DNA of 64,000 bases, from contig NZ_MPCX01000007.1 in the NCBI RefSeq assembly GCF_001874145.1, positions 62,001 to 126,000 on the forward strand, written 5' to 3'. The notes beneath the pieces are model-generated. The model did no database searches. It had not been told where the DNA came from and saw only the letters and a program-made list of their open reading frames with translations. Numbering within the stretch: position 1 is the first letter of the stretch; the number at the start of each line of letters is the position of its first letter. Both the position numbers and the translations under genes were made by a program. This stretch comes from Lacinutrix sp. MedPE-SW. Its GTDB lineage: Bacteria; Bacteroidota; Bacteroidia; Flavobacteriales; Flavobacteriaceae. Shown here piece after piece: positions 4,727 through 15,120 of the stretch.

Positions 4727-5014
4727 TTACATTTTACGACTTATTGAGCCTGTAAAGTCTTCAAGGTCGTCTTTTACTTTTTTAAGTTCGTCTTGTACAT
4801 CTTTTGTAATACTGGTATCAATACCATTTTGCTCGGCACTTTTAGTTATTTCGCCTTTAATATCGTTAGATGCATCTTTTAGCATACGCATGCCTTTACC
4901 AAGACCTCTAGCGATTTCTGGAATGTTTTTGGCACCAAATATCATGACTACTGCAAGAATAATTAAAATTGCTTCTTGGCCACCAATAAATAAGAATGTT
5001 GTTAATTTTATCAC
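4727..5014 (-). CDS. tatA: Twin-arginine translocase subunit TatA/TatE-type
   Basis: 95 residues: one N-terminal membrane helix (about 6-24), the FGAKNIPEIARGLGKGMR amphipathic segment with the conserved FG hinge and Pro-Glu, then a charged tail. This is the TatA/B family; length and helix match TatA. It would oligomerise in the inner membrane to export folded Tat substrates together with a TatC encoded elsewhere. It lies downstream of ppa on the same strand, but a strong terminator separates them, so it probably has its own promoter. Confidence 0.85.
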   Translation of the reverse strand: MIKLTTFLFIGGQEAILIILAVVMIFGAKNIPEIARGLGKGMRMLKDASNDIKGEITKSAEQNGIDTSITKDVQDELKKVKDDLEDFTGSISRKM

Positions 5015-5034
5015 GGTACAAATATAATAATAAA

Positions 5035-5067
5035 AAAGCCTTTCAAATATACTTTGAAAGGCTTTTA
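5035..5067 (-). terminator. Intrinsic terminator of ppa
   Basis: 14-bp perfect arms (AAAAGCCTTTCAAA / TTTGAAAGGCTTTT) with a 5-base loop. Read on the minus strand it follows the ppa stop and ends in a T-run (TTTTTTATTATTA), so it should separate ppa from tatA. Confidence 0.85.
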
Positions 5068-5086
5068 ACTATTTTAATATAATAGA

Positions 5087-5614
5087 TTATATTGTAAAGT
5101 TACCATTGGTTTTATGCTCACTATTTTCGTAGCGTTCAACACATTTGTTAAGAATCTCGTAAGCTTCTTTTGCGTCTCCCCAACCACCAACATCTACTTT
5201 TTTCTTTTCTAGATCTTTATACACTTGGAAAAAGTGTGTAATTTCCTTAATACGGTGAGGATTTAAATCATCAATATCATTGTAGCTATTCCAAATAGGA
5301 TCTGTAACAGGAACACAAATTAATTTCTCGTCAGGACCTTTTTCGTCTGCCATATGGAAAACGCCAATTGGTTTAACTTCTACAACACACATAGGAAAAG
5401 TAGGTTCTGTACCCATTACTAAAACATCTAATGGATCTCCATCTAATGCTAATGTTTCTGGTATAAAACCGTAATCTCCTGGATACATCATTGATGAAAA
5501 TAACATACGATCGAAACGAATTTTATTTAATTCAAAATCGTATTCATACTTGTTTCTGCTTCCTTTTGGTATTTCTATTAAAACATCAAAAGTTAATTTT
5601 CCTTCTGGACTCAT
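5087..5614 (-). CDS. ppa: Inorganic pyrophosphatase (family I)
   Basis: 175 residues, a normal length for bacterial family I PPase. The signature DGDPLDVLV (Asp58, Asp60, Asp63) binds Mg2+, and the upstream EIPKGSRNKYEYD and YPGDYGFIP segments are typical. It hydrolyses pyrophosphate in the cytoplasm and drives biosynthetic reactions forward. Monocistronic by the terminator that follows. The start gives MSPEGKLTFDVLIEIPKG, which fits the family N-terminus. Confidence 0.95.
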   Translation of the reverse strand: MSPEGKLTFDVLIEIPKGSRNKYEYDFELNKIRFDRMLFSSMMYPGDYGFIPETLALDGDPLDVLVMGTEPTFPMCVVEVKPIGVFHMADEKGPDEKLICVPVTDPIWNSYNDIDDLNPHRIKEITHFFQVYKDLEKKKVDVGGWGDAKEAYEILNKCVERYENSEHKTNGNFTI

Positions 5615-5754
5615 GAAATATTATTTGTTTATTCCCGAAAATGGGATGCTAATTATTGTTTATAAACGAAAAACTAAGGTTTTTCGGGCAGCAAAAATAC
5701 ATATTCATTTGAGTTTTAACAAGTATTATATAAAATCTTATTATTAAGTTTAAT

Positions 5755-6348
5755 TTAAAAGTCGAAACCTAATGTAAACTGCCAAACTCTATTTTTTGGT
5801 TTTCCTTCATCATATATGTCTCCTAGGCCTAAATGATATCTTACACCAAAGCTTACTCCAGAGTCTGTTTTAAAACCTGCTCCGAAATTAACTCCGTAAT
5901 CAAATTTATTTGGTTCAAACTCTTCTTCGTTATCAAAGAGATTAAATTCACTATCAAATTCTTCTTTATGAGAAATTGCTAAACCTGCTTGTGGTCCTGC
6001 TTCTAGGAAGAAATTTTGAGTTGGATAGATTTTTAATAGTAATGGTAAATTAATATAATTTACTTTTTGTGTAAATGTAGAATTGTCATTTTTAATTTCG
6101 TAGCCTTGTTGAGAGTATTGTAACTCTACTTGTATTGCTACGGCGTTATTAACAAATGATTCGCCATAAAAGCCTATATTAAAGCCGCTACGTTGTCCAG
6201 TTTCACCATCGCCATCAAAACTTACAGAGGCTAAACTGTAACCTCCTTTAATTCCTGCATGCGATTTGTTTTTACTTTCTGCATCTTGTGCATTTATTGT
6301 TATTGCAGCTATTACTATTAGCGCAAATGATAAGATTTGTTTTTTCAT
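5755..6348 (-). CDS. Porin-family outer membrane beta-barrel protein
   Basis: 197 residues. A signal peptide (LIVIAAITINAQ) ends at about residue 20, followed by HAGIKGGYSLASVSF and alternating amphipathic strands ending in an aromatic C-terminal residue (WQFTLGFDF). This matches the small OMP_b-brl_2 group of Bacteroidota outer-membrane barrels, predicted at eight strands. No ligand is implied by sequence. It lies 24 bases downstream of a zinc-protease lipoprotein gene on the same strand and may be co-transcribed. Confidence 0.75.
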   Translation of the reverse strand: MKKQILSFALIVIAAITINAQDAESKNKSHAGIKGGYSLASVSFDGDGETGQRSGFNIGFYGESFVNNAVAIQVELQYSQQGYEIKNDNSTFTQKVNYINLPLLLKIYPTQNFFLEAGPQAGLAISHKEEFDSEFNLFDNEEEFEPNKFDYGVNFGAGFKTDSGVSFGVRYHLGLGDIYDEGKPKNRVWQFTLGFDF

Positions 6349-6372
6349 TTTGTAAATATTTATTTAGGGTTT

Positions 6373-7143
6373 TTATTTTCCTCCGTTTGCTTGCAAATCT
6401 GCAATGCATTGTGCATCTAATTGTGGTATTTCATCTCCAGAAACCATATCCATAACGCCATTTGTTGTTTCGGTTTTCCAGAACATTAAACAATTTGTTT
6501 CATCGCAATGTTTTGGGTGCGCTTCATCTTCATGATTAGATTGTAATGGTGCACCTAAATTTGTTAGTCCAAATATATGGCCTATTTCATGTAAAGTTAC
6601 TGTTGTTTCTAAGGCTTGCCTACTAGGTTCAAAAGCATCATCACTCAAGTTGTGTATACTTTCTTCGTATATAACAAATGATGTATTTCTATAAGCAGTA
6701 CCTAAAACAGAACTGTTTTGAGAGTTGCTTGCAGATAAACCATCTATATATAATGCCCAAACGGCTAATTGATCTTCTGTATTAAAAATGGTTCTATTGT
6801 TATCTTCAATTGTTCTAACTTCATTGGTAGTGTATGGAGATAAACCTGGTGATGGAATACTTCTTTTTTGTACAGTTATTCCATTGGGTTTGTAAGTTCG
6901 TTCATTAAAAAAAGCAACTATATTATTAACTGCTTGTTGTGTTGGTTCAAAACCTTCAACATAAATTAATTCTATTACTAAACTTTTATATTGAGTATCT
7001 GAAAGTAAATCTTTAGATGATGCTCCAACGTTTTGTAAATGATAATCTATAGTGTTTTCTGTTCCGTTACTTTCATCGTCTTTAGAACAAGAAAAACTGG
7101 TAATAAATAATAAAATAATAATAAAATAAGTGTTCTTTTTCAT
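6373..7143 (-). CDS. Zinc metalloprotease-like lipoprotein (HExxH)
   Basis: 256 residues with a lipobox (TSFSC, Cys19). The zinc motif HEIGHIFGL (His185, Glu186, His189) is the first part of a metzincin signature, but the residue where the third His would sit is Asn195. About 17 residues later comes HCDETNCLM (His212, Cys213, Cys218), which has the HC-x4-C-x-M spacing seen after the zinc motif in archaemetzincins. The third ligand is therefore probably His212, with an insertion between. It belongs to a group seen in Flavobacteria, usually labelled membrane metalloprotease. Substrate unknown. Confidence 0.7.
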   Translation of the reverse strand: MKKNTYFIIILLFITSFSCSKDDESNGTENTIDYHLQNVGASSKDLLSDTQYKSLVIELIYVEGFEPTQQAVNNIVAFFNERTYKPNGITVQKRSIPSPGLSPYTTNEVRTIEDNNRTIFNTEDQLAVWALYIDGLSASNSQNSSVLGTAYRNTSFVIYEESIHNLSDDAFEPSRQALETTVTLHEIGHIFGLTNLGAPLQSNHEDEAHPKHCDETNCLMFWKTETTNGVMDMVSGDEIPQLDAQCIADLQANGGK

Positions 7144-7160
7144 GATATAAATATACTTTA

Positions 7161-7196
7161 AATAAGCTACTGTCTCAATTGAGATAGTAGCTTATT
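7161..7196 (-). terminator. Long hairpin, probable terminator of the repeat lipoprotein gene
   Basis: A 36-base inverted repeat (AATAAGCTACT / AGTAGCTTATT outer arms, GTCTC / GAGAT inner arms) with one imperfect pair. It lies between the stop of the 7254-8321 gene and the start of the metalloprotease gene. The T-run on the minus strand is short, so termination may be partial. Confidence 0.5.
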
Positions 7197-7253
7197 TTCA
7201 ACAATCAACTTATTATTTACGATAAATTTGGGGTAATAGGTTTTATTTTGAGA

Positions 7254-8321
7254 TTAAATTTGTTGTAATACTAGTGTTGCTGCAGCATTAGTCGTACTTT
7301 GTAAAGATATGCTTGTGTTGTTAAAACTTGTTACTTCCCAGTTTTGGTTAAGTAAACTAAAATTAGCATTACTTGTAAAGTTTAGGTTTAAAAACACTTC
7401 TGTTTGAGAGGTTACTTGATAAGTACCTTCTACATTTTCAACTGTTGAATTTACTGTGTTTTCTGCTACTAGAGATAAGTCATTTGCAAAATCGATAGTG
7501 AATTCTACATAATCATTTGCAGTATCTACACCAGAGTTTACAAAAGATTCTACTTGAAATAATCCATCAACTAATATTTCTTCTAAGTTGTTTGCGTTTC
7601 CTTCTGCATCTTCCATAGTGTCTTCTTGCATTACACAGTCTTCTACGCTTGATTGTAAATCTGCATCACTTGAGATAGTAACAGTGTTTCCTCCTGCACC
7701 AGTAACTGTAATTGGGTAGTTTACAGAAAATAATTCGTCTTCATTAAAATTATTAATATAGTTATACAGTTGCTCTTCACTTTCTATAACAACACTTCCT
7801 GTTTGTTCTGCATTTATATTGTAAGTAAAAATTGTAATTGGAAAATTAATATCTACACAAGATAAAGCGTTTTCTGCATTAGCTTCGGCTTGTTCACAGG
7901 CTTCATTTATAGCATCATATTCTGCTTGGTTTGTTACAACAACCTCTGTATAGTTACTTAATGCAACTGTAACAGGAAATTGTAATACAACGGTATCATC
8001 ATCTGTATTAAATTCTGCTAAAATATCTAATACTTGTTGGTAATCTGCTTGGCTAATTATTGTAACTTCTGTGTTGTTAACTGTAGCAGTTACTGGTAGT
8101 AAAATTGAAGAACATGATACACCATCTAAAAAGTCATCAAACGAACCATCGTACATAGATGAACGTTCTAAATTGTTTGCTGTTTGAGAATTTGCGGTAT
8201 TTGTGTTAGTGTTTGGGTTTTCGCCTGTTTCATTATCTATCTCATCTTGGCATGAAGTAAAAGTTAATAAGGCTGTTAAAAATACTGTGGCAATTAATTT
8301 TAAATTTTTCATTGTTTTCAT
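7254..8321 (-). CDS. Repeat-containing lipoprotein of the ECF signalling locus
   Basis: 355 residues. A lipobox (FTSC, Cys24) and an Asn/Thr-rich linker are followed by four related units of about 30-40 residues starting near 75, 115, 160 and 202, each with a [LFY]P[VI]T strand, a V-x-[IV] strand and a helix containing D/E. Cys70, Cys142, Cys155 and Cys229 bracket the repeats and could pair. The C-terminal part (about 250-355) looks like a separate beta domain. I recognise no named family. An ECF-type promoter element lies 48 bases upstream of the start, and the gene is divergent from the ECF sigma gene, so it is probably a cell-surface output or ligand-binding part of that system. Confidence 0.75.
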   Translation of the reverse strand: MKTMKNLKLIATVFLTALLTFTSCQDEIDNETGENPNTNTNTANSQTANNLERSSMYDGSFDDFLDGVSCSSILLPVTATVNNTEVTIISQADYQQVLDILAEFNTDDDTVVLQFPVTVALSNYTEVVVTNQAEYDAINEACEQAEANAENALSCVDINFPITIFTYNINAEQTGSVVIESEEQLYNYINNFNEDELFSVNYPITVTGAGGNTVTISSDADLQSSVEDCVMQEDTMEDAEGNANNLEEILVDGLFQVESFVNSGVDTANDYVEFTIDFANDLSLVAENTVNSTVENVEGTYQVTSQTEVFLNLNFTSNANFSLLNQNWEVTSFNNTSISLQSTTNAAATLVLQQI

Positions 8322-8368
8322 TTTTAAATTTGTTTTTCTTTTTCTAGCGATTTTCGCCCATTTGTAAG

Positions 8369-8400
8369 TAAGACAATTGTAAATTATTTTACCCTACTTT
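8369..8400 (-). promoter_or_regulatory. ECF-type promoter P1 facing the repeat lipoprotein gene
   Basis: On the minus strand it reads AAAGTAGGGTA, then a spacer, then GTCTTA, with 20 bases from the first G of GGG (8394) to the first G of GTC (8374). The GTC fits an ECF -10 core. The predicted start site lies about 40 bases before the lipoprotein ATG at 8321. The same element with the same spacing occurs at 8519-8550 and 9116-9147. Function is inferred from the repetition and placement. Confidence 0.7.
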
Positions 8401-8492
8401 TAATTTATTAAAATTATAGCATAGCTTAATAAAAACACTAATGCTATGGTTAATACAATTTCTACGACTTCTAATATTTTGATTGGTATCAT
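8400..8492 (-). CDS. Predicted 30-residue hydrophobic membrane peptide
   Basis: A small ORF on the minus strand with ATG at 8490-8492 and TAA at 8400-8402. It starts MIPIKILEVVEIVLTIALVF and ends in a hydrophobic stretch, so it could form one membrane helix (about residues 6-28). Evidence that it is real: the predicted start site of ECF-type promoter P2 lies about 20 bases before its ATG, and its stop abuts promoter P1. So the interval between the two promoters is almost exactly this ORF. No Shine-Dalgarno is visible, as usual here. No homologue is recognised; it could also be a chance ORF. Confidence 0.5.
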   Translation of the reverse strand: MIPIKILEVVEIVLTIALVFLLSYAIILIN

Positions 8493-8518
8493 GGTCAATG
8501 GATTTATAATTATAATAG

Positions 8519-8550
8519 TTAGACAATAGAAAAAGAATATACCCTACTTT
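8519..8550 (-). promoter_or_regulatory. ECF-type promoter P2 facing the small peptide ORF
   Basis: Minus strand AAAGTAGGGTA, then GTCTAA, with the GGG at 8544 and GTC at 8524 (20 bases, identical to P1 and P3). It lies exactly 150 bases upstream of P1. The first gene downstream is the 30-codon hydrophobic ORF at 8400-8492; read-through would reach the 355-residue lipoprotein gene. Confidence 0.65.
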
Positions 8551-8599
8551 TAAATTAACTTTTTTTATAACTAACTTGTTTTTACTTTATTTGCAAACA

Positions 8600-9112
8600 A
8601 TGAGGAACGATAAAAAACTTTGTGAAGACAGTTACTTTAATAACTTTTATTTAGAGTATATACAACAGGCAAGTAATTTTGCTTACTATAAATGTGGAGA
8701 TAAGGATACAGCTTTAGATTTGGTACAAGATGCGTTTTCTAAAATTTGGGAAAATTGTTCTAAAATTGATTTTACTAAAGCAAAAACGTATTTGTTTACT
8801 ACGGTTAACAATCTTTTTTTAAATAAAATTAAACATGAAAAGGTTGTTATGGAATATGCTAAAGCAGCTCCATATCTAGATATTAATAATCAAAACCCAG
8901 AATATATCTTAGAAGAAGAAGAGTTTAAAGCAAAGCTTCAAAATGCTATTTCTTTATTAACAGATAAACAGCGTGAGGTATTTTTATTAAATAGAATTGA
9001 AGGAAAGAAATATAGAGAGATAGCCGAAATGTTAGGTGTTTCTCAAAAAGCTGTAGAAAAACGAATGTCTTTAGCATTAACTATTCTTAGAGAGAAAATA
9101 GATATTTTATAA
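8600..9112 (+). CDS. ECF RNA polymerase sigma factor (FecI-like)
   Basis: 170 residues from the ATG at 8600 (a TTG at 8576 would add eight unlikely residues). Region 2 contains DLVQDAFSKIWE and region 4 contains the helix-turn-helix KYREIAEMLGVSQKAVEKRM, typical of Bacteroidota ECF sigmas paired with FecR. It would direct RNA polymerase to a small set of promoters when released by the FecR protein encoded 54 bases downstream. Three copies of one ECF-type promoter element surround this gene and are its likely targets; none drives the sigma gene itself, so sigma synthesis is presumably independent. Confidence 0.9.
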   Translation: MRNDKKLCEDSYFNNFYLEYIQQASNFAYYKCGDKDTALDLVQDAFSKIWENCSKIDFTKAKTYLFTTVNNLFLNKIKHEKVVMEYAKAAPYLDINNQNPEYILEEEEFKAKLQNAISLLTDKQREVFLLNRIEGKKYREIAEMLGVSQKAVEKRMSLALTILREKIDIL

Positions 9113-9115
9113 AAA

Positions 9116-9147
9116 AAAGTAGGGTAAATATAAAATTAACTGTCTTA
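9116..9147 (+). promoter_or_regulatory. ECF-type promoter P3 driving FecR-receptor
   Basis: AAAGTAGGGTA followed by GTCTTA, GGG at 9122 and GTC at 9142 (20 bases). It lies between the sigma stop (9112) and the FecR ATG (9167), leaving a predicted leader of only about 13-15 bases. This would let the sigma factor amplify its anti-sigma and receptor genes separately from itself. Confidence 0.75.
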
Positions 9148-9166
9148 GAGGTGAAGCACTTATAAA

Positions 9167-10072
9167 ATGAAAGATGAAAATAAAATACTAAAATGGTTAA
9201 ATAATGAGCTTTCTCATGAAGAAATTGATGATTTAAAAAAATCGGGAAATTTTAAAGATTTAGAGAAAATAGCACATTACTCAACGCAATTAGAAGCTCC
9301 AAAAGTAGATGCTGAAGCTGCATTACATGCTTTTAGACTAAAACAAAAGCAAAAACCAAAAGTTCGCACTTTAAATTTTAAGCCATACTTAAAATATGCC
9401 GCTATTTTAGTTGTTATGCTAAGTGTAACTTTTTTAACTTTTTTTAATAATAATAAAAGTTTTAATACTAGCATTGCAGAAACCCAAACCATTACATTAC
9501 CAGACAACTCTCAAGTAATGCTAAGTGCAGTTTCTAGCCTTAGTTACAATAAGAAGAAATGGAAAAACGATAGAGATTTAGAACTTGATGGTGAAGCTTT
9601 TTTTAAAGTAAGTAAAGGTAAGAAGTTTACAGTAAAAACAAGTGTTGGTGAGATACAAGTTTTAGGAACCCAGTTTAATGTAAAAGAACGTGATAACTAT
9701 TTTGAAGTGCAATGCTACGAAGGTTTAGTTGCTGTTACATTTAATGGAGAAACCGTAAAATTATCTAAAGGAAAATCGTTTAGAGTAGTAAATAATGCAA
9801 TAGAGTTAGTAGACGATTTTTCAAGCATACAACCTTCTTGGTTAAGCCAAGAATCTACCTTTGTTAAAGTGCCACTTAAATACGTAATAGCAGATTTAGA
9901 AAATTATTATAATATAAAAGTGATTACACAATCTATTAATACAGAAAAACTTTTTACAGGTACTTTTACACATAATAATAAAGATATAGCACTACAATCT
10001 ATAACAATACCATTAAAATTAAGTTACAAAACTGAAGGTGATACAGTTACTTTCTATACCTATGAAAATTAA
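9167..10072 (+). CDS. FecR family anti-sigma/signal-transfer protein
   Basis: 301 residues. A short cytoplasmic N-terminus (1-70), predicted to bind the sigma factor, is followed by a single membrane helix at about 76-95 and a periplasmic FecR domain (ITLPDNSQVMLSAVSSLSY, then the GEAFFKV and LGTQFNV strands). A C-terminal DUF4974-type domain (VPLKYVIADLENYYNIKV) follows. It carries the signal from the outer-membrane receptor to the ECF sigma. Its 3' end overlaps the receptor start by 11 bases, indicating translational coupling. An ECF-type promoter lies just upstream. Confidence 0.9.
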   Translation: MKDENKILKWLNNELSHEEIDDLKKSGNFKDLEKIAHYSTQLEAPKVDAEAALHAFRLKQKQKPKVRTLNFKPYLKYAAILVVMLSVTFLTFFNNNKSFNTSIAETQTITLPDNSQVMLSAVSSLSYNKKKWKNDRDLELDGEAFFKVSKGKKFTVKTSVGEIQVLGTQFNVKERDNYFEVQCYEGLVAVTFNGETVKLSKGKSFRVVNNAIELVDDFSSIQPSWLSQESTFVKVPLKYVIADLENYYNIKVITQSINTEKLFTGTFTHNNKDIALQSITIPLKLSYKTEGDTVTFYTYEN

Positions 10073-12599
10073 AACTTGGCTTGTTTATTCTTTTATTTTT
10101 TTAACCAGTATTTGTTTTAGTCAACAAAAAGATAAAACTATTGATTTAATCAAGTTTTTAGAAGCAACCGAAATTAAATACAATGTAAAATTCTCGTATG
10201 CGTTTGAAGATGTTTCAAATATTGATATAAAACAACCAGAAAATAATTTAAGTTTAAGTGAGACTTTAGCCTATTTAAACGCAAATACATTATTAAACTT
10301 TAAGACTTTAGACAACCGTTATATAACAGTTTCTGTTTTAGAAAAAACCATTACTATATGTGGTTTTATAGTTAATAAAGATAATAAGCCTCTTTTAGGA
10401 GCAACAATAAAACATACAACAACTTCAAAGGGAGTAATTACAAATGCAAAAGGAAAATTTGAGTTAAAAAATATTCCTTTAAATGCTATTATAGAAATAT
10501 CTTATTTAGGTTTTAATACAGAAAAACATTTAGCAAAAACTTTTTTTTCAACAAATAATACTTGTAAAACAATTGTTTTGGAGGAAGCTCAAATTAGCTT
10601 GAATCAAGTTTATATTACAAAGTTTTTAACCACAGGATTACAAAAAAGTTTCGACGGAAGTACCATTTTAAACACTAAAAAATTTGGCATTCTTCCAGGA
10701 TTAATAGATCCAGATATATTACAATCGATACAAGCACTTCCTGGTGTAGAAAGTAAAAATGAAAGTATAGCAAACATAAATATTAGAGGTGGTTCTAACG
10801 ACGAAAATTTAATGCTTTGGGATGATATTAAAATGTATCACTCAGGACACTTTTTTGGTTTAATTTCTGCTTACAATCCATATTTAACTAATAAAGTAAT
10901 AGTAAGTAAAAATGGTACCAGTAGTCAATATAGTGATGGCGTTTCTAGTACTATTAATATGTTTACCAAAAATAAAATTACAAATACATTTTCTGGCGGA
11001 GCAGGAATAAACCTTATTAGTGGTGATGCTTTTTTAGAAATCCCATTAGCAAAAAATTTAGAGCTACATGTATCTGGAAGACGTTCTTTTACAGATGTAT
11101 TTTTAACTCCAACGTATAATAATTACTTCGATAAAAGTTTTCAAGACAGTGATTTAAATAATAATGAAACTACTTTTAATGGAGAGTCTAATTCTAATTT
11201 TTCATTTTACGATTATAGTGCAAAACTTTTATTTGATTTAGGTGAAAACCATGAATTTAGAAGTAATATTATAGTAATTGATAATAATCTTGACTATGCC
11301 GAAACAACTATAAATAATAGTGAAACAACAACAAAATCTAGTAATCTAAATCAAAAAAACATTGGTATGGGAGGACATTGGAAAGCAAATTGGAACAATC
11401 ACTTTTCTACTAAACTAATTGGTTATTATTCTAAATACAATGTTGATGCTTCAGATTTACGAGTTGAAACCAATCAATTATTATTTCAGTCTAACGAAGT
11501 TTTAGAAACAGGAGTAAAGCTAAATGCTAATTATAAATTAAATTCAAAATTATCACTTTTAGCAGGCTATCAATTTAATGAAACAGGAATATTAAACGAG
11601 ACTAATGTTTCTATTCCTGCATTTAACCGTACTAAAAAAGATGTATTATTAAACCATGCCTTTTATACAGAAACAGAATTTAAAAATGCCAAAACTTATT
11701 TACGAGTAGGAGCTAGGCTTAATTATTTTCAAAAATTTAATAAACTTTTAGTAGAGCCAAGAATTAACATTAAACAAAAAATTTCAAGACAGTTTGCTTT
11801 AAACTTAAAAGGAGAATTTAAAAACCAAACTGCAACACAAAAAATAGATTTTCAAGACGATTTTTTAGGTGTGGAAAATAGACGTTGGGTTCTGGCTAAC
11901 GAAAAAGATATACCTATTACAACAAGTAAACAAGCGTCGTTTGGTATAGATTATAAGCAAAACAATTTAAATATAGAAGCAACCGCTTTTTATAAATTAG
12001 TAAATGGTATTACAGCCAGTAATCAAGGGTTTTATAATAACTTTCAGTTTTTAAGTGCAACAGGAGATTACACTGCTAGAGGTGTAGAGTTTTTAATAAA
12101 TAAATCTTCTAGTAACTATAGCACGTGGTTGAGTTACACATATAGTATTAATGATTATAATTTTGAGAGTTTTACACCTTCAGTTTTTCCTAATAATGTA
12201 GATATTAGGCATTCTATATCATTAGCTTTTAATTATAATATTTTAGAAAATTTAAAAGCATCTCTAGGTGGAGTTTGGCGTTCTGGTGTTCCTTATACAA
12301 AACCAGTAGAAGGTAACGAAACAGTACAAGATGGAAATGTAACCTTTGTAAATTATGATTTACCTAATAACGAAACCTTAGATTCGTTTTTTAGGCTTGA
12401 TGCATCTTTGGCTTATAATTTTAGTTTTTTAAATACTACTAAAGCAACTATAAATTTGGGTGTTAGAAACGTAACTAATCAAAATAATACAATTAGTCGT
12501 TATTATGAGGTTGATACAAATAATCAAGAACAAACTATAGAAATTGATAACAAATCGCTAAAGTTAACTCCAAATGTGAGTTTTAGAGTTCAATTTTAA
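10062..12599 (+). CDS. FecA-like TonB-dependent receptor with STN and carboxypeptidase-like domains
   Basis: 845 residues from the ATG at 10062, overlapping the FecR stop. Order: signal peptide (ending ICFSQ), a secretin/TonB N-terminal-like (STN) signalling domain at about 25-95, a carboxypeptidase regulatory-like beta sandwich (ITICGFIVNKDNKPLLGATI) at about 105-190, a plug with INIRGGSNDENLMLWDD, and a 22-strand barrel ending in a C-terminal Phe (VSFRVQF). The STN domain with upstream FecR and ECF sigma is the classic cell-surface signalling arrangement. The ligand is not evident; no SusD-like partner is present. It converges with the next gene, with one base between stops. Confidence 0.88.
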   Translation: MKIKTWLVYSFIFLTSICFSQQKDKTIDLIKFLEATEIKYNVKFSYAFEDVSNIDIKQPENNLSLSETLAYLNANTLLNFKTLDNRYITVSVLEKTITICGFIVNKDNKPLLGATIKHTTTSKGVITNAKGKFELKNIPLNAIIEISYLGFNTEKHLAKTFFSTNNTCKTIVLEEAQISLNQVYITKFLTTGLQKSFDGSTILNTKKFGILPGLIDPDILQSIQALPGVESKNESIANINIRGGSNDENLMLWDDIKMYHSGHFFGLISAYNPYLTNKVIVSKNGTSSQYSDGVSSTINMFTKNKITNTFSGGAGINLISGDAFLEIPLAKNLELHVSGRRSFTDVFLTPTYNNYFDKSFQDSDLNNNETTFNGESNSNFSFYDYSAKLLFDLGENHEFRSNIIVIDNNLDYAETTINNSETTTKSSNLNQKNIGMGGHWKANWNNHFSTKLIGYYSKYNVDASDLRVETNQLLFQSNEVLETGVKLNANYKLNSKLSLLAGYQFNETGILNETNVSIPAFNRTKKDVLLNHAFYTETEFKNAKTYLRVGARLNYFQKFNKLLVEPRINIKQKISRQFALNLKGEFKNQTATQKIDFQDDFLGVENRRWVLANEKDIPITTSKQASFGIDYKQNNLNIEATAFYKLVNGITASNQGFYNNFQFLSATGDYTARGVEFLINKSSSNYSTWLSYTYSINDYNFESFTPSVFPNNVDIRHSISLAFNYNILENLKASLGGVWRSGVPYTKPVEGNETVQDGNVTFVNYDLPNNETLDSFFRLDASLAYNFSFLNTTKATINLGVRNVTNQNNTISRYYEVDTNNQEQTIEIDNKSLKLTPNVSFRVQF

Positions 12600-12600
12600 A

Positions 12601-15120
12601 TTAGAAATAAAAACCAAAACTACCTGTAACACCAAATTTTCTAGCATCTGGATTAAAACTTGGATCTAAGTAATTACCTCTAAAGTTAAAATCTATTCTA
12701 AACACTTTAAAAATATTGCCAACGCCTATACTGTATTCGTAGTAAGCTTCTTTATTTGGAGCAACATAAACAAATGGCGTTCCGTCTGGATTAAACGATG
12801 CATTTATATCTCTATTTTCTTGAGAGACATCTCCCATAACACCTCTAAAACCAACAATAGCTCTAAGGTTTAGTTTTTTAAGTAATGGAATTCTAGAAAA
12901 TAATCTCCCATTAAAATTATGCTCTACGTGTAATGTTGCGTATTCATCGGTTACAAACTCATAAAAATCTAACTGTGAAAAGGTGTTATAAATTGAAAAA
13001 TACGATTGGTTTCCAGGAACAACACTCATTAAGGCTAATGGTATTTGCCCATATGTTTTACCAACTTCTATAGACGTAGTTAAGCGACCAAAGCCACCAA
13101 CAGCTATGGGTTGTATATACGAAAACTGAAGCTTTGTGTAATCAAAATCACTATCAAAAACACCTTTGTCTCCGCGAGTTACTTGAGCGAATAACTGTGC
13201 GAAATCGCTGTTTTTTACACGACGTTCTACACCAAAACCTGTCATTTCTCGTTTTGGCATATAGCGAACAGAAAAAGCAGATTCGTATTGCTTTATTTCT
13301 GATGCTGTAGTTGTTTGTGTAGCATCTGTATAATAATCTAAACTAAAGGTTGGTGAGGCAGACTCTAAGGTTTTGTAAGTACCACTAACTCGTGTTACTA
13401 AATTTCTAACAAGTTCTGCTTCAATAGCAATTGTACTTAGGTTTATATTGGTAAGCTTATCGTTAGTTCCTGTGCCAACTATAGAAGACGAAGCTAAACT
13501 TCTTCCTAAAACATCTGTAGATGAGGTTAAACTGGCTCCAATTTGTTCTACATCACGCCTGTTACCACCAGAAATTATAAACCTGTTTTTTTTGTCTAAT
13601 AACCATTTTCCAGAAATACCGTATTTAAACTTATTGTCTTTAAAACCGTAGGCTGTAAAACCTTCTAACCTCCAAAGGTCATTTTGTCCAAAATAGGTAC
13701 GACCACCAGCACGTAAACGTAAACCTTCTACTTCGTTAAAACCAAAGGTTGAAAATACGCTACCATAGTCTAGGTTTAGTTCATCAAATTCAATATATCC
13801 AGATGCTAATATGCTTCCTATATTATAAAGACGTTTAAATTTTTTGGTTTTCTTTAAAGAGTCTAACATGACGTAAACACCTTTTTCGTCTTTACTAAGC
13901 TTTTCCATTCTGTTTTCTTCCCAGAAAGCATCGTCTTGATTGTATAAATCTTCATCAAAACTATAGACTTTTTCTTTGTAAAATTTTGGGTCTTTTTCAA
14001 TGTCAAACTTGTAATTATTATACAATGAAGTACGTTTACCATAAATACCTTGGGACTTTTCCTTTTTATTAAAAGCAAAATCCGACATAAAATAATCACG
14101 TTTAATTAAAAATACAGAATCATTAAGTACCTCATATTCCTGTTCAATATATATTTCTTTTACCCAGTTTATATTTGCACTTTTAGAGGCTTGCATATTT
14201 ATATCTTTAATAGCAAAAGTGGTATCTGCAACCCAAAAGTCTCCTTTAAAGGTTAACTCGTTTTTACGTCGTGGGTAATAAATAATATTATAACACCATT
14301 TGTTGTCTATATATGCGCTATCTGCTAGCACATAATTGTACACATTAATTCCTGTTCTTGAAATAGGACTTGTAAAGCTTTTATCAAAAAACTTCAAATA
14401 GTTATCATAAACATCAAAATCGCTGTATAAGTCGTCAACAAAATCTATAATAATCTGGTTGTTACTAAAACCAGAGTTTTTATTGCCTTTTAGTATTTCA
14501 CGTTTTTCGTTAATTATATTATCGCCATAAACTTCGCTAGACGACTCGTTAATAAACATTGGTAAATAGGTTTTACCTGTTATGTTAGAGGTGTCTACCT
14601 GCTCAAAAACAAACTCCATACCTTTAAACAGTTTGCTTTTCATTGTTGCACTGTCAATAGTATTTAAATCAAACTCTACCTTTTCGTAGCGATCGTATTG
14701 GTATTGGTTGTATTGCTTTAAACCATTACTTCTTTTGTTGGCCCATATTTTTCGTAAAATATCTATTGCTGGATTGTTTTTTTTAGGTTGCTTGCCAGAA
14801 ACAATAAGTACTTCGTCTAGAGCTGCAACATCTTCTTTTAAAACAATATCAAAATCGTAAGTTACCTTTTGTTTTAAAGGTACAGTTTGCGTGACGTAAC
14901 TAATAAATGAAAAAACTACAGTGTCGTGATTGCCATCATCTTCTAGATAGTACGTTCCGTTTTCGTCTGTTATAGTTCCAATACTTGTACCTTGAAAATA
15001 GACGTTTGCATAGGCTATAGGTTCATTACTTTCATCGTAAATGTGACCGCTAATTTTTGTTTGAGCTAAAACTGTAACACTAGCTAATAAAAACAAAAAG
15101 GATAATATTCTATATTTCAT
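12601..15120 (-). CDS. DUF5686 / carboxypeptidase-like regulatory domain outer-membrane protein
   Basis: 839 residues. The signal peptide ends at about residue 19 (VTVLAQ). A carboxypeptidase regulatory-like domain follows (TKISGHIYDESNEPIAYANV) at about 21-110, then the large DUF5686 region with amphipathic strands and a C-terminal GSFGFYF typical of outer-membrane barrels. The family is widespread in Bacteroidota and its function is unknown. It lies downstream of pdhB on the same strand, but a terminator hairpin separates them. Its stop is one base from that of the FecA-like receptor on the other strand, so neither gene has room for its own terminator. Confidence 0.8.
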   Translation of the reverse strand: MKYRILSFLFLLASVTVLAQTKISGHIYDESNEPIAYANVYFQGTSIGTITDENGTYYLEDDGNHDTVVFSFISYVTQTVPLKQKVTYDFDIVLKEDVAALDEVLIVSGKQPKKNNPAIDILRKIWANKRSNGLKQYNQYQYDRYEKVEFDLNTIDSATMKSKLFKGMEFVFEQVDTSNITGKTYLPMFINESSSEVYGDNIINEKREILKGNKNSGFSNNQIIIDFVDDLYSDFDVYDNYLKFFDKSFTSPISRTGINVYNYVLADSAYIDNKWCYNIIYYPRRKNELTFKGDFWVADTTFAIKDINMQASKSANINWVKEIYIEQEYEVLNDSVFLIKRDYFMSDFAFNKKEKSQGIYGKRTSLYNNYKFDIEKDPKFYKEKVYSFDEDLYNQDDAFWEENRMEKLSKDEKGVYVMLDSLKKTKKFKRLYNIGSILASGYIEFDELNLDYGSVFSTFGFNEVEGLRLRAGGRTYFGQNDLWRLEGFTAYGFKDNKFKYGISGKWLLDKKNRFIISGGNRRDVEQIGASLTSSTDVLGRSLASSSIVGTGTNDKLTNINLSTIAIEAELVRNLVTRVSGTYKTLESASPTFSLDYYTDATQTTTASEIKQYESAFSVRYMPKREMTGFGVERRVKNSDFAQLFAQVTRGDKGVFDSDFDYTKLQFSYIQPIAVGGFGRLTTSIEVGKTYGQIPLALMSVVPGNQSYFSIYNTFSQLDFYEFVTDEYATLHVEHNFNGRLFSRIPLLKKLNLRAIVGFRGVMGDVSQENRDINASFNPDGTPFVYVAPNKEAYYEYSIGVGNIFKVFRIDFNFRGNYLDPSFNPDARKFGVTGSFGFYF

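Follow-up and report, generated by a model that had tools for sequence, protein, structure and literature searches.

The window, i.e., the whole 64,000-nt stretch of DNA that was analysed, carries a locus in which the genes for an ECF sigma factor, a FecR-type regulator and a TonB-dependent receptor lie divergently to a group of lipoprotein-associated genes, with three copies of a two-box motif in the gaps. The genes and features of this locus, with the promoters and transcription starts being predicted, are as follows:

5755-6348, minus strand: outer-membrane beta-barrel of 197 aa (Pfam OMP_b-brl_2)
6373-7143, minus strand: metzincin-like metalloprotease lipoprotein of 256 aa, according to weak Reprolysin_5/Zincin_1 and archaemetzincin matches
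7160-7197, minus strand: strong stem-loop between the lipoprotein and protease genes, predicted by folding
7254-8321, minus strand: lipoprotein of 355 aa with beta-beta-alpha repeats and a lipocalin-like C-terminal domain in the AlphaFold2 model
8346-8358, minus strand: predicted hairpin GGCGA-AAA-TCGCT at the 5' side of the lipoprotein message, about 5 nt downstream of the putative start
8369-8397, minus strand: putative ECF promoter of the lipoprotein operon, probable start at about 8363
8400-8492, minus strand: probable microprotein gene of 30 aa with one membrane segment predicted from hydropathy, supported by homologs and amino-acid constraint
8519-8547, minus strand: putative upstream tandem ECF promoter before the microprotein gene, ending in GTCTAA, probable start at about 8513
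8545-8552, plus strand: TACTTTTA, 7/8 to TAnnTTTG and overlapping the -35 box of the divergent ECF site, putative promoter of the sigma gene
8600-9112, plus strand: ECF sigma factor of 170 aa, by family profile match to TIGR02985 (Sig70_bacteroi1)
9119-9147, plus strand: putative ECF promoter of fecR-receptor, GTAGGGTA-N15-GTCTTA, probable start at about 9153
9167-10072, plus strand: FecR-type anti/pro-sigma factor of 301 aa (Pfam FecR, FecR_C)
10062-12599, plus strand: TonB-dependent receptor of 845 aa with CarbopepD_reg and plug domain matches

The sigma factor scored 128.9 bits against TIGR02985, which has a cut-off of 126.4, and its Sigma70_r2 and Sigma70_r4_2 domains were both above the cut-off; many flavobacterial genomes carry several such FecI-like sigma genes each. 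Both FecR domains of the following protein also exceeded their cut-offs, and its matches in the PDB were the putative anti-sigma factors 4m0n/4m0h. The Pfam STN model matched neither the receptor of the window nor its orthologs, and no FecR_C match was listed for the former in the domain scan. An N-terminus similar to FecR_C, which we take to be an STN-like fold, was found in 6/10 orthologous receptors, in all of them below the cut-off, and was absent in 4/10. The score of the receptor against the SusC/RagA model TIGR04056 was 54.2 bits, far under the cut-off of 368.25; no SusD family member or glycan enzyme was found among the eight locus proteins that were scanned, and no ABC transporter was seen at the locus. 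After the receptor lies a convergent gene, the DUF5686 product of which contains a CarbopepD_reg domain (12601-15120, minus strand), which is probably outside the regulon because several relatives carry other genes in its place.

On the other side of the locus, the lipoprotein appears to head an operon with the metzincin-like protease and usually the beta-barrel: a homolog of the protease was present in 37/37 of the ortholog loci that were checked, that of the barrel in 33/37 (it was missing in L084, L085, L086 and L185), and the order lipoprotein-protease-barrel was found in 32/37. The lipoprotein has an SCQDEID lipobox, as judged by eye, and its CQDEID start, which we take to be a lipoprotein export signal, would predict export to the surface. 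It had no match in Pfam or NCBIfam, and a sequence search of the PDB found nothing. The AlphaFold2 model (alignment A1, 25 sequences) had a mean pLDDT of 76.7 and a pTM of 0.61, and the fold search against the PDB returned no match at E<=0.001; the best matches, which were weak (E 1.7e-3), were an uncharacterised protein and a lipocalin-like protein. Potempin E, which is a protease inhibitor, reached a TM of 0.72 on the target but an E of only 0.038 and was kept as a lead only. The matches of the adjacent protease were below the curated cut-offs; its HEIGH and C-x4-C-x-M are presumably the archaemetzincin motif. A protease beside a lipocalin-like lipoprotein brings a protease-inhibitor pair to mind, which is mentioned here as a thought. 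Four loci (L077, L087, L097 and L099) have two tandem copies of the lipoprotein gene, each with an ECF site of its own that has at most one mismatch. The message itself has conserved structure. A leader hairpin near the putative start was found in 31/38 leaders (mean of 4.8 and maximum of 9 in mononucleotide-shuffled sequences) and its stem changes in ways that preserve pairing, e.g., GCGA/TCGC, GCAAA/TTTGC and AGCAC/GTGCT. A stem-loop after the lipoprotein was predicted in 22/22 loci that were folded, without a shuffled control and weakly in L076; that of the window was not flagged by the terminator scan and is a candidate attenuator or message protector. Perhaps the lipoprotein message is abundant and is kept so by these hairpins. 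No Rfam family was matched in a scan of positions 5000-13000.

The motif GTAGGGTA-N15-GTCTWA occurs in exactly three copies in the window, and 100 shuffled versions of it (dinucleotide-preserving) contained none. A preliminary description of this DNA had reported three copies with a constant distance of 20 bases from GGG to GTC, measured from start to start, and this was confirmed in 3/3; its coordinates pointed to the same three sites, while the ranges were slightly too wide and took in the preceding A's. Its statement that each copy faces a different unit holds for the copy before fecR and the receptor; the two copies on the minus strand are a tandem and probably do not serve separate units. 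Many random matches unrelated to FecR loci would have spoken against a regulon of this sigma factor, and they were not seen: the window copies were the only ones in the whole genome (3.04 Mb, 22 contigs), in which the reversed-motif control gave no match. When up to two mismatches were allowed, 14 matches, the three copies included, were obtained versus 18 for the reversed control, so nothing beyond the three copies stands out, and the 11 further two-mismatch sites were rejected as targets since they were fewer than the matches of the control. The regulon that is defined by this motif thus looks local in this genome.

Across genomes, the motif follows the sigma ortholog. Within the genus, it was present in 4/13 genomes, which were exactly the four with a sigma match at 84-100% identity; in the other nine the best sigma match was only 54% identical and the motif was absent. 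In the family, sigma matches of at least 66% were found in 15/149 genomes (the next best genome had 57%), and the N15 motif occurred in 14 of these 15, with no exact copy in G144, compared with 2/134 of the genomes without such an ortholog (G041 and G057, in both beside a related sigma gene). A larger set of 397 family genomes contained 62 with a match at a spacer of 14-16; a spacer of 15 stands out there because, by manual count, it gave 101 matches compared with 8 for N14, 14 for N16 and about 69 for the reversed control over the three spacings together. An order-wide draw of 395 genomes yielded 12 matching genomes (counted manually), all among the 76 of the same family, and none among the 319 genomes of other families. 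The search also worked in the opposite direction: in one genus (g127), 11 motif matches formed seven regions that were picked by motif alone, five of which turned out to be the sigma-fecR-receptor/lipoprotein locus with a sigma factor 69.9-71.5% identical, and two to belong to a 150-aa protein family that is known with the same site elsewhere. The motif matches G082:C1 and G229:C17 were left out of the fetched loci.

The proposal of the preliminary description that these are the promoters of the adjacent sigma factor is supported by this co-occurrence of motif and ortholog, from which we infer that the sigma factor binds the motif. Alternatively, the sites may be read by a different ECF sigma factor or by several related ones that share the regulon. 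The motif may be common to several sigma factors because distant paralogous sigma loci (G041, G057, G278 and G199) carry it before their divergent lipoproteins, and G020 has a site next to a paralogous sigma gene, ahead of a 91-aa ORF. We consider such a shared regulon improbable, as the motif is absent in all nine genus genomes that lack the ortholog although eight of them carry paralogs at E<=1e-30, and as the closest paralogous sigma/FecR locus of the same genome (L128, G000:C21:109500-118500) has a different, related motif, GTAGGAATTT...TTGTTATA, before its fecR instead. A motif similar to the latter was also seen before the divergent lipoprotein of L128, and the two loci form a natural pair for studies of sigma specificity.

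The two minus-strand copies enclose an ORF of 30 codons, which is very probably a real gene for a single-pass microprotein. Homologs that share its hydrophobic pattern, 20 in all and 30-42 aa long, were found at the same place; in 16 of them the ATG lies 55-59 nt from the start of the site. Tandem sites 141-171 bp apart were detected in 18 stretches of GTDB genomes; the lipoprotein lies downstream in 16 of these, with the sigma ortholog on the fetched stretch in 14/16, and the pairs in Colwellia and a Bacteroidales MAG were discarded as unrelated repeats. Between the sites of 14 of the 16 lipoprotein-linked pairs lies an ORF of 32-42 aa that has a single hydrophobic segment, and no intact microprotein homolog was found between the tandem sites of L137 and L150. 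Moreover, pN was lower than pS in 174/190 pairs of homologs. Five pairs that we chose had 48 amino-acid differences versus 67.1 +- 3.7 in a neutral simulation, in which 0/2000 runs were as low, and the third codon positions changed most (58 versus 37 and 12). The constraint argument rests on this simulation because the shifted-frame control was not clean, the mean pN/pS being 0.39 for the true frame compared with 0.50 for frame +1 and 0.55 for antisense. A microprotein profile matched 27/149 genomes at E<=0.1; at E<1e-4 it matched 6/149, in all six at this locus. As rows from five of these six genomes had gone into the profile, the result is evidence more of confinement to this locus than of an independent recovery.

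It could be argued that the ORF is spurious and that the upstream tandem site is merely a second promoter of the lipoprotein operon. The ORF stops at 8400, immediately before the second minus-strand site, and a terminator scan found nothing between it and the lipoprotein gene; the upstream site therefore probably reads on into the lipoprotein. The frame is also interrupted or eroded in L087a, L098, L078 and L102, and neither an intact ORF nor the upstream site is present in many relatives, including the five g127 loci, which, like the control in shifted frames, fits a spurious ORF. The shared hydrophobic pattern and spacing of the homologs, the deficit of amino-acid differences and the excess of changes at third positions nevertheless make this explanation unlikely. 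The microprotein reading is thus preferred, and the gene was very probably often lost together with its promoter.

The position and structure of the sites agree with a role as promoters. When compared with other loci of the fecI-fecR type, as the preliminary description had proposed, the gap between sigma and fecR contained a site with at most two mismatches in 33/33 ortholog loci (19 exact, 12 with one and 2 with two), 19 of these loci having been chosen for their motif matches; in an unselected set of 15 orthologs that were found by protein alone (14 from the 33 loci and G135, which was inspected separately), the fecR site was present at the same threshold in 15/15. The same applied to the divergent lipoprotein in 32/33 loci, the exception being L076 with four mismatches. 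The spacer of the sites between sigma and fecR was 15 nt in 33/33 loci, and with a -35 box and a GTC (-10) box at such a fixed spacing the sites fit the ECF promoter class. Before fecR, the GTC box starts 22-29 nt ahead of the ATG (14 in L080). In a profile of 145 sites, the core letters of which were required by the search itself, a pyrimidine-purine step, T-[AG], follows 9-11 nt after GTC; it is suggestive of the transcription start, and the start positions given above were placed by it. As had been claimed, the sigma gene has no copy of its own, the best match upstream of it on its own strand having 4-6 mismatches in the 33 loci; by promoter position, the sigma factor would thus control the receptor gene and not its own gene. 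A conserved two-box element can equally be an operator, but binding of a transcription factor is a very remote explanation given that the fecR and lipoprotein sites point towards their genes with a fixed spacer, an ECF-type GTC box and a downstream T-[AG] step, that they lie close to the start codon and that no such regulator was seen in the locus except sigma and FecR.

Promoters of the sigma factor may also occur away from the locus in the relatives. Of 117 distinct sites, 98 lie within 180 nt before an ORF of at least 100 aa, a count without a random control; the remainder comprises 12 upstream tandem sites, three inside ORFs, which look like chance matches (L120, L125 and L129), and four that are neither (L095, L113, L116 and L130), that of L130 having no near gene and also resembling chance. 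In L116, L120 and L124, the ORF downstream of the site has no relatives in the compared set. Elsewhere, the same families recur: a 298-aa protein behind three sites (L091, L092 and L106), an N-terminally hydrophobic protein of 126-149 aa behind four (L100, L117, L126 and L127) and a 150-aa SYYxxRAxEDAKFEQ protein behind nine, some close to the locus and others away from it. That identical families follow the site at different genomic places supports promoter function. No Pfam match above the cut-off was found for the eight extra-target proteins that were scanned. By eye, the first of these families (298-299 aa) is coiled-coil-like and has an SPFH-like gene nearby, and its ECF site lies 28-29 nt upstream. 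Two genomes that belong to one genus have a site (L095:4261-4289, minus strand; L113:4138-4166, plus strand) that is followed by no ORF of at least 28 aa within 200 nt. In both, it precedes a similar stretch of about 300 nt that ends in terminator-like hairpins, as seen by eye; this stretch is possibly an ECF-driven small RNA.

The sigma gene itself is probably read by the housekeeping sigma-A, as its upstream sequence suggests. The housekeeping -7 box TAnnTTTG, a consensus taken from the promoter description in PMC9723704, had an exact match in the 100 nt before the sigma gene in 25/38 loci (shuffled mean 5.7, maximum 12). In the 15 loci that also have the divergent ECF site there, it overlaps the -35 element of this site in nine; the overlapping box of the window is one base off the consensus. 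The five g127 loci had no such box before sigma, and a scan with the sigma-70 consensus showed no enrichment (21 found versus 20.7 in shuffles). We hypothesise that the sigma-gene promoter and the divergent ECF promoter are mutually exclusive.

Taken together, the locus is very likely a self-contained cell-surface-signalling regulon, the sigma factor of which reads the GTAGGGTA-N15-GTCTTA promoters. This reading is based on sequence, namely, the motif, its conservation and genomic specificity, the gene content, the amino-acid constraint and the hairpins; from these we infer the binding of the motif by sigma, the direction of the signal, the feedback and the ligand. A ligand would bind the TonB-dependent receptor, the receptor would signal through its N-terminal domain to FecR, and FecR would then free or activate the ECF sigma factor, which would direct RNA polymerase to the promoters. 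One promoter would raise FecR and the receptor, and the tandem pair the membrane microprotein and the lipoprotein-metzincin-barrel operon. Because the sigma gene lacks such a promoter and is probably read by sigma-A, induction would raise FecR relative to sigma and limit the response. A more tentative idea, which we hold to be possible but rather doubtful, is that the microprotein (about 30-37 aa) is a dedicated component of the FecI/FecR/receptor circuit that is made on the order of sigma and, from within the inner membrane, targets FecR, the processing of FecR or the TonB machinery, and that its promoter, which is back to back with the housekeeping promoter of sigma and has bases in common with it, silences the sigma gene once sigma binds. 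If true, this would be a new feedback layer in ECF surface signalling.

Among known systems, the locus resembles FecI/FecR/FecA of E. coli in its ECF sigma factor, its FecR-type regulator with FecR_C and its TonB-dependent receptor. The relevant part of PMC9249621 describes the fecIR genes of E. coli as not autoregulated and read by sigma-70; for the window, we would likewise expect a sigma gene that lacks autoregulation and depends on a housekeeping sigma factor. Unlike in E. coli, a target promoter is placed between the sigma gene and fecR, and FecR should therefore rise with the response; the -35 box is GTAGGGTA, the ABC transporter was not seen and a lipoprotein, a protease, a barrel and a microprotein are added. 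The Bacteroidetes ECF/anti-sigma systems of SusC/D polysaccharide loci, as described in a section of PMC3878776, are similar in their TIGR02985-type sigma factor, FecR-type regulator and CarbopepD_reg receptor, whereas here the receptor is below the SusC/RagA cut-off and the scanned proteins comprise neither SusD nor a glycan enzyme. The same section regards the prediction of ECF-controlled promoters as challenging and mapped starts as needed. A flavobacterial set of ECF-type promoters that share a conserved -10 region box, SM6 of Flavobacterium psychrophilum, is also known from the promoter description in PMC9723704; compared by that description, the box of SM6 is CGT and its targets include several of the T9SS, and the window has GTAGGGTA/GTCTTA and a lipoprotein operon. 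Neither the motif nor the microprotein was found in the literature that was searched, subscription journals being mostly outside its reach. The likely promoter code of one sigma factor could here be read from sequence, followed the ortholog across genomes and allowed targets to be predicted in another genus; the motif also exposed a probable microprotein gene that is kept in several genera and makes it testable whether a FecI/FecR switch is tuned by so small a membrane protein and by promoter overlap. The switch thus looks to be of the known FecI/FecR/FecA kind, and its promoter code and microprotein look new.
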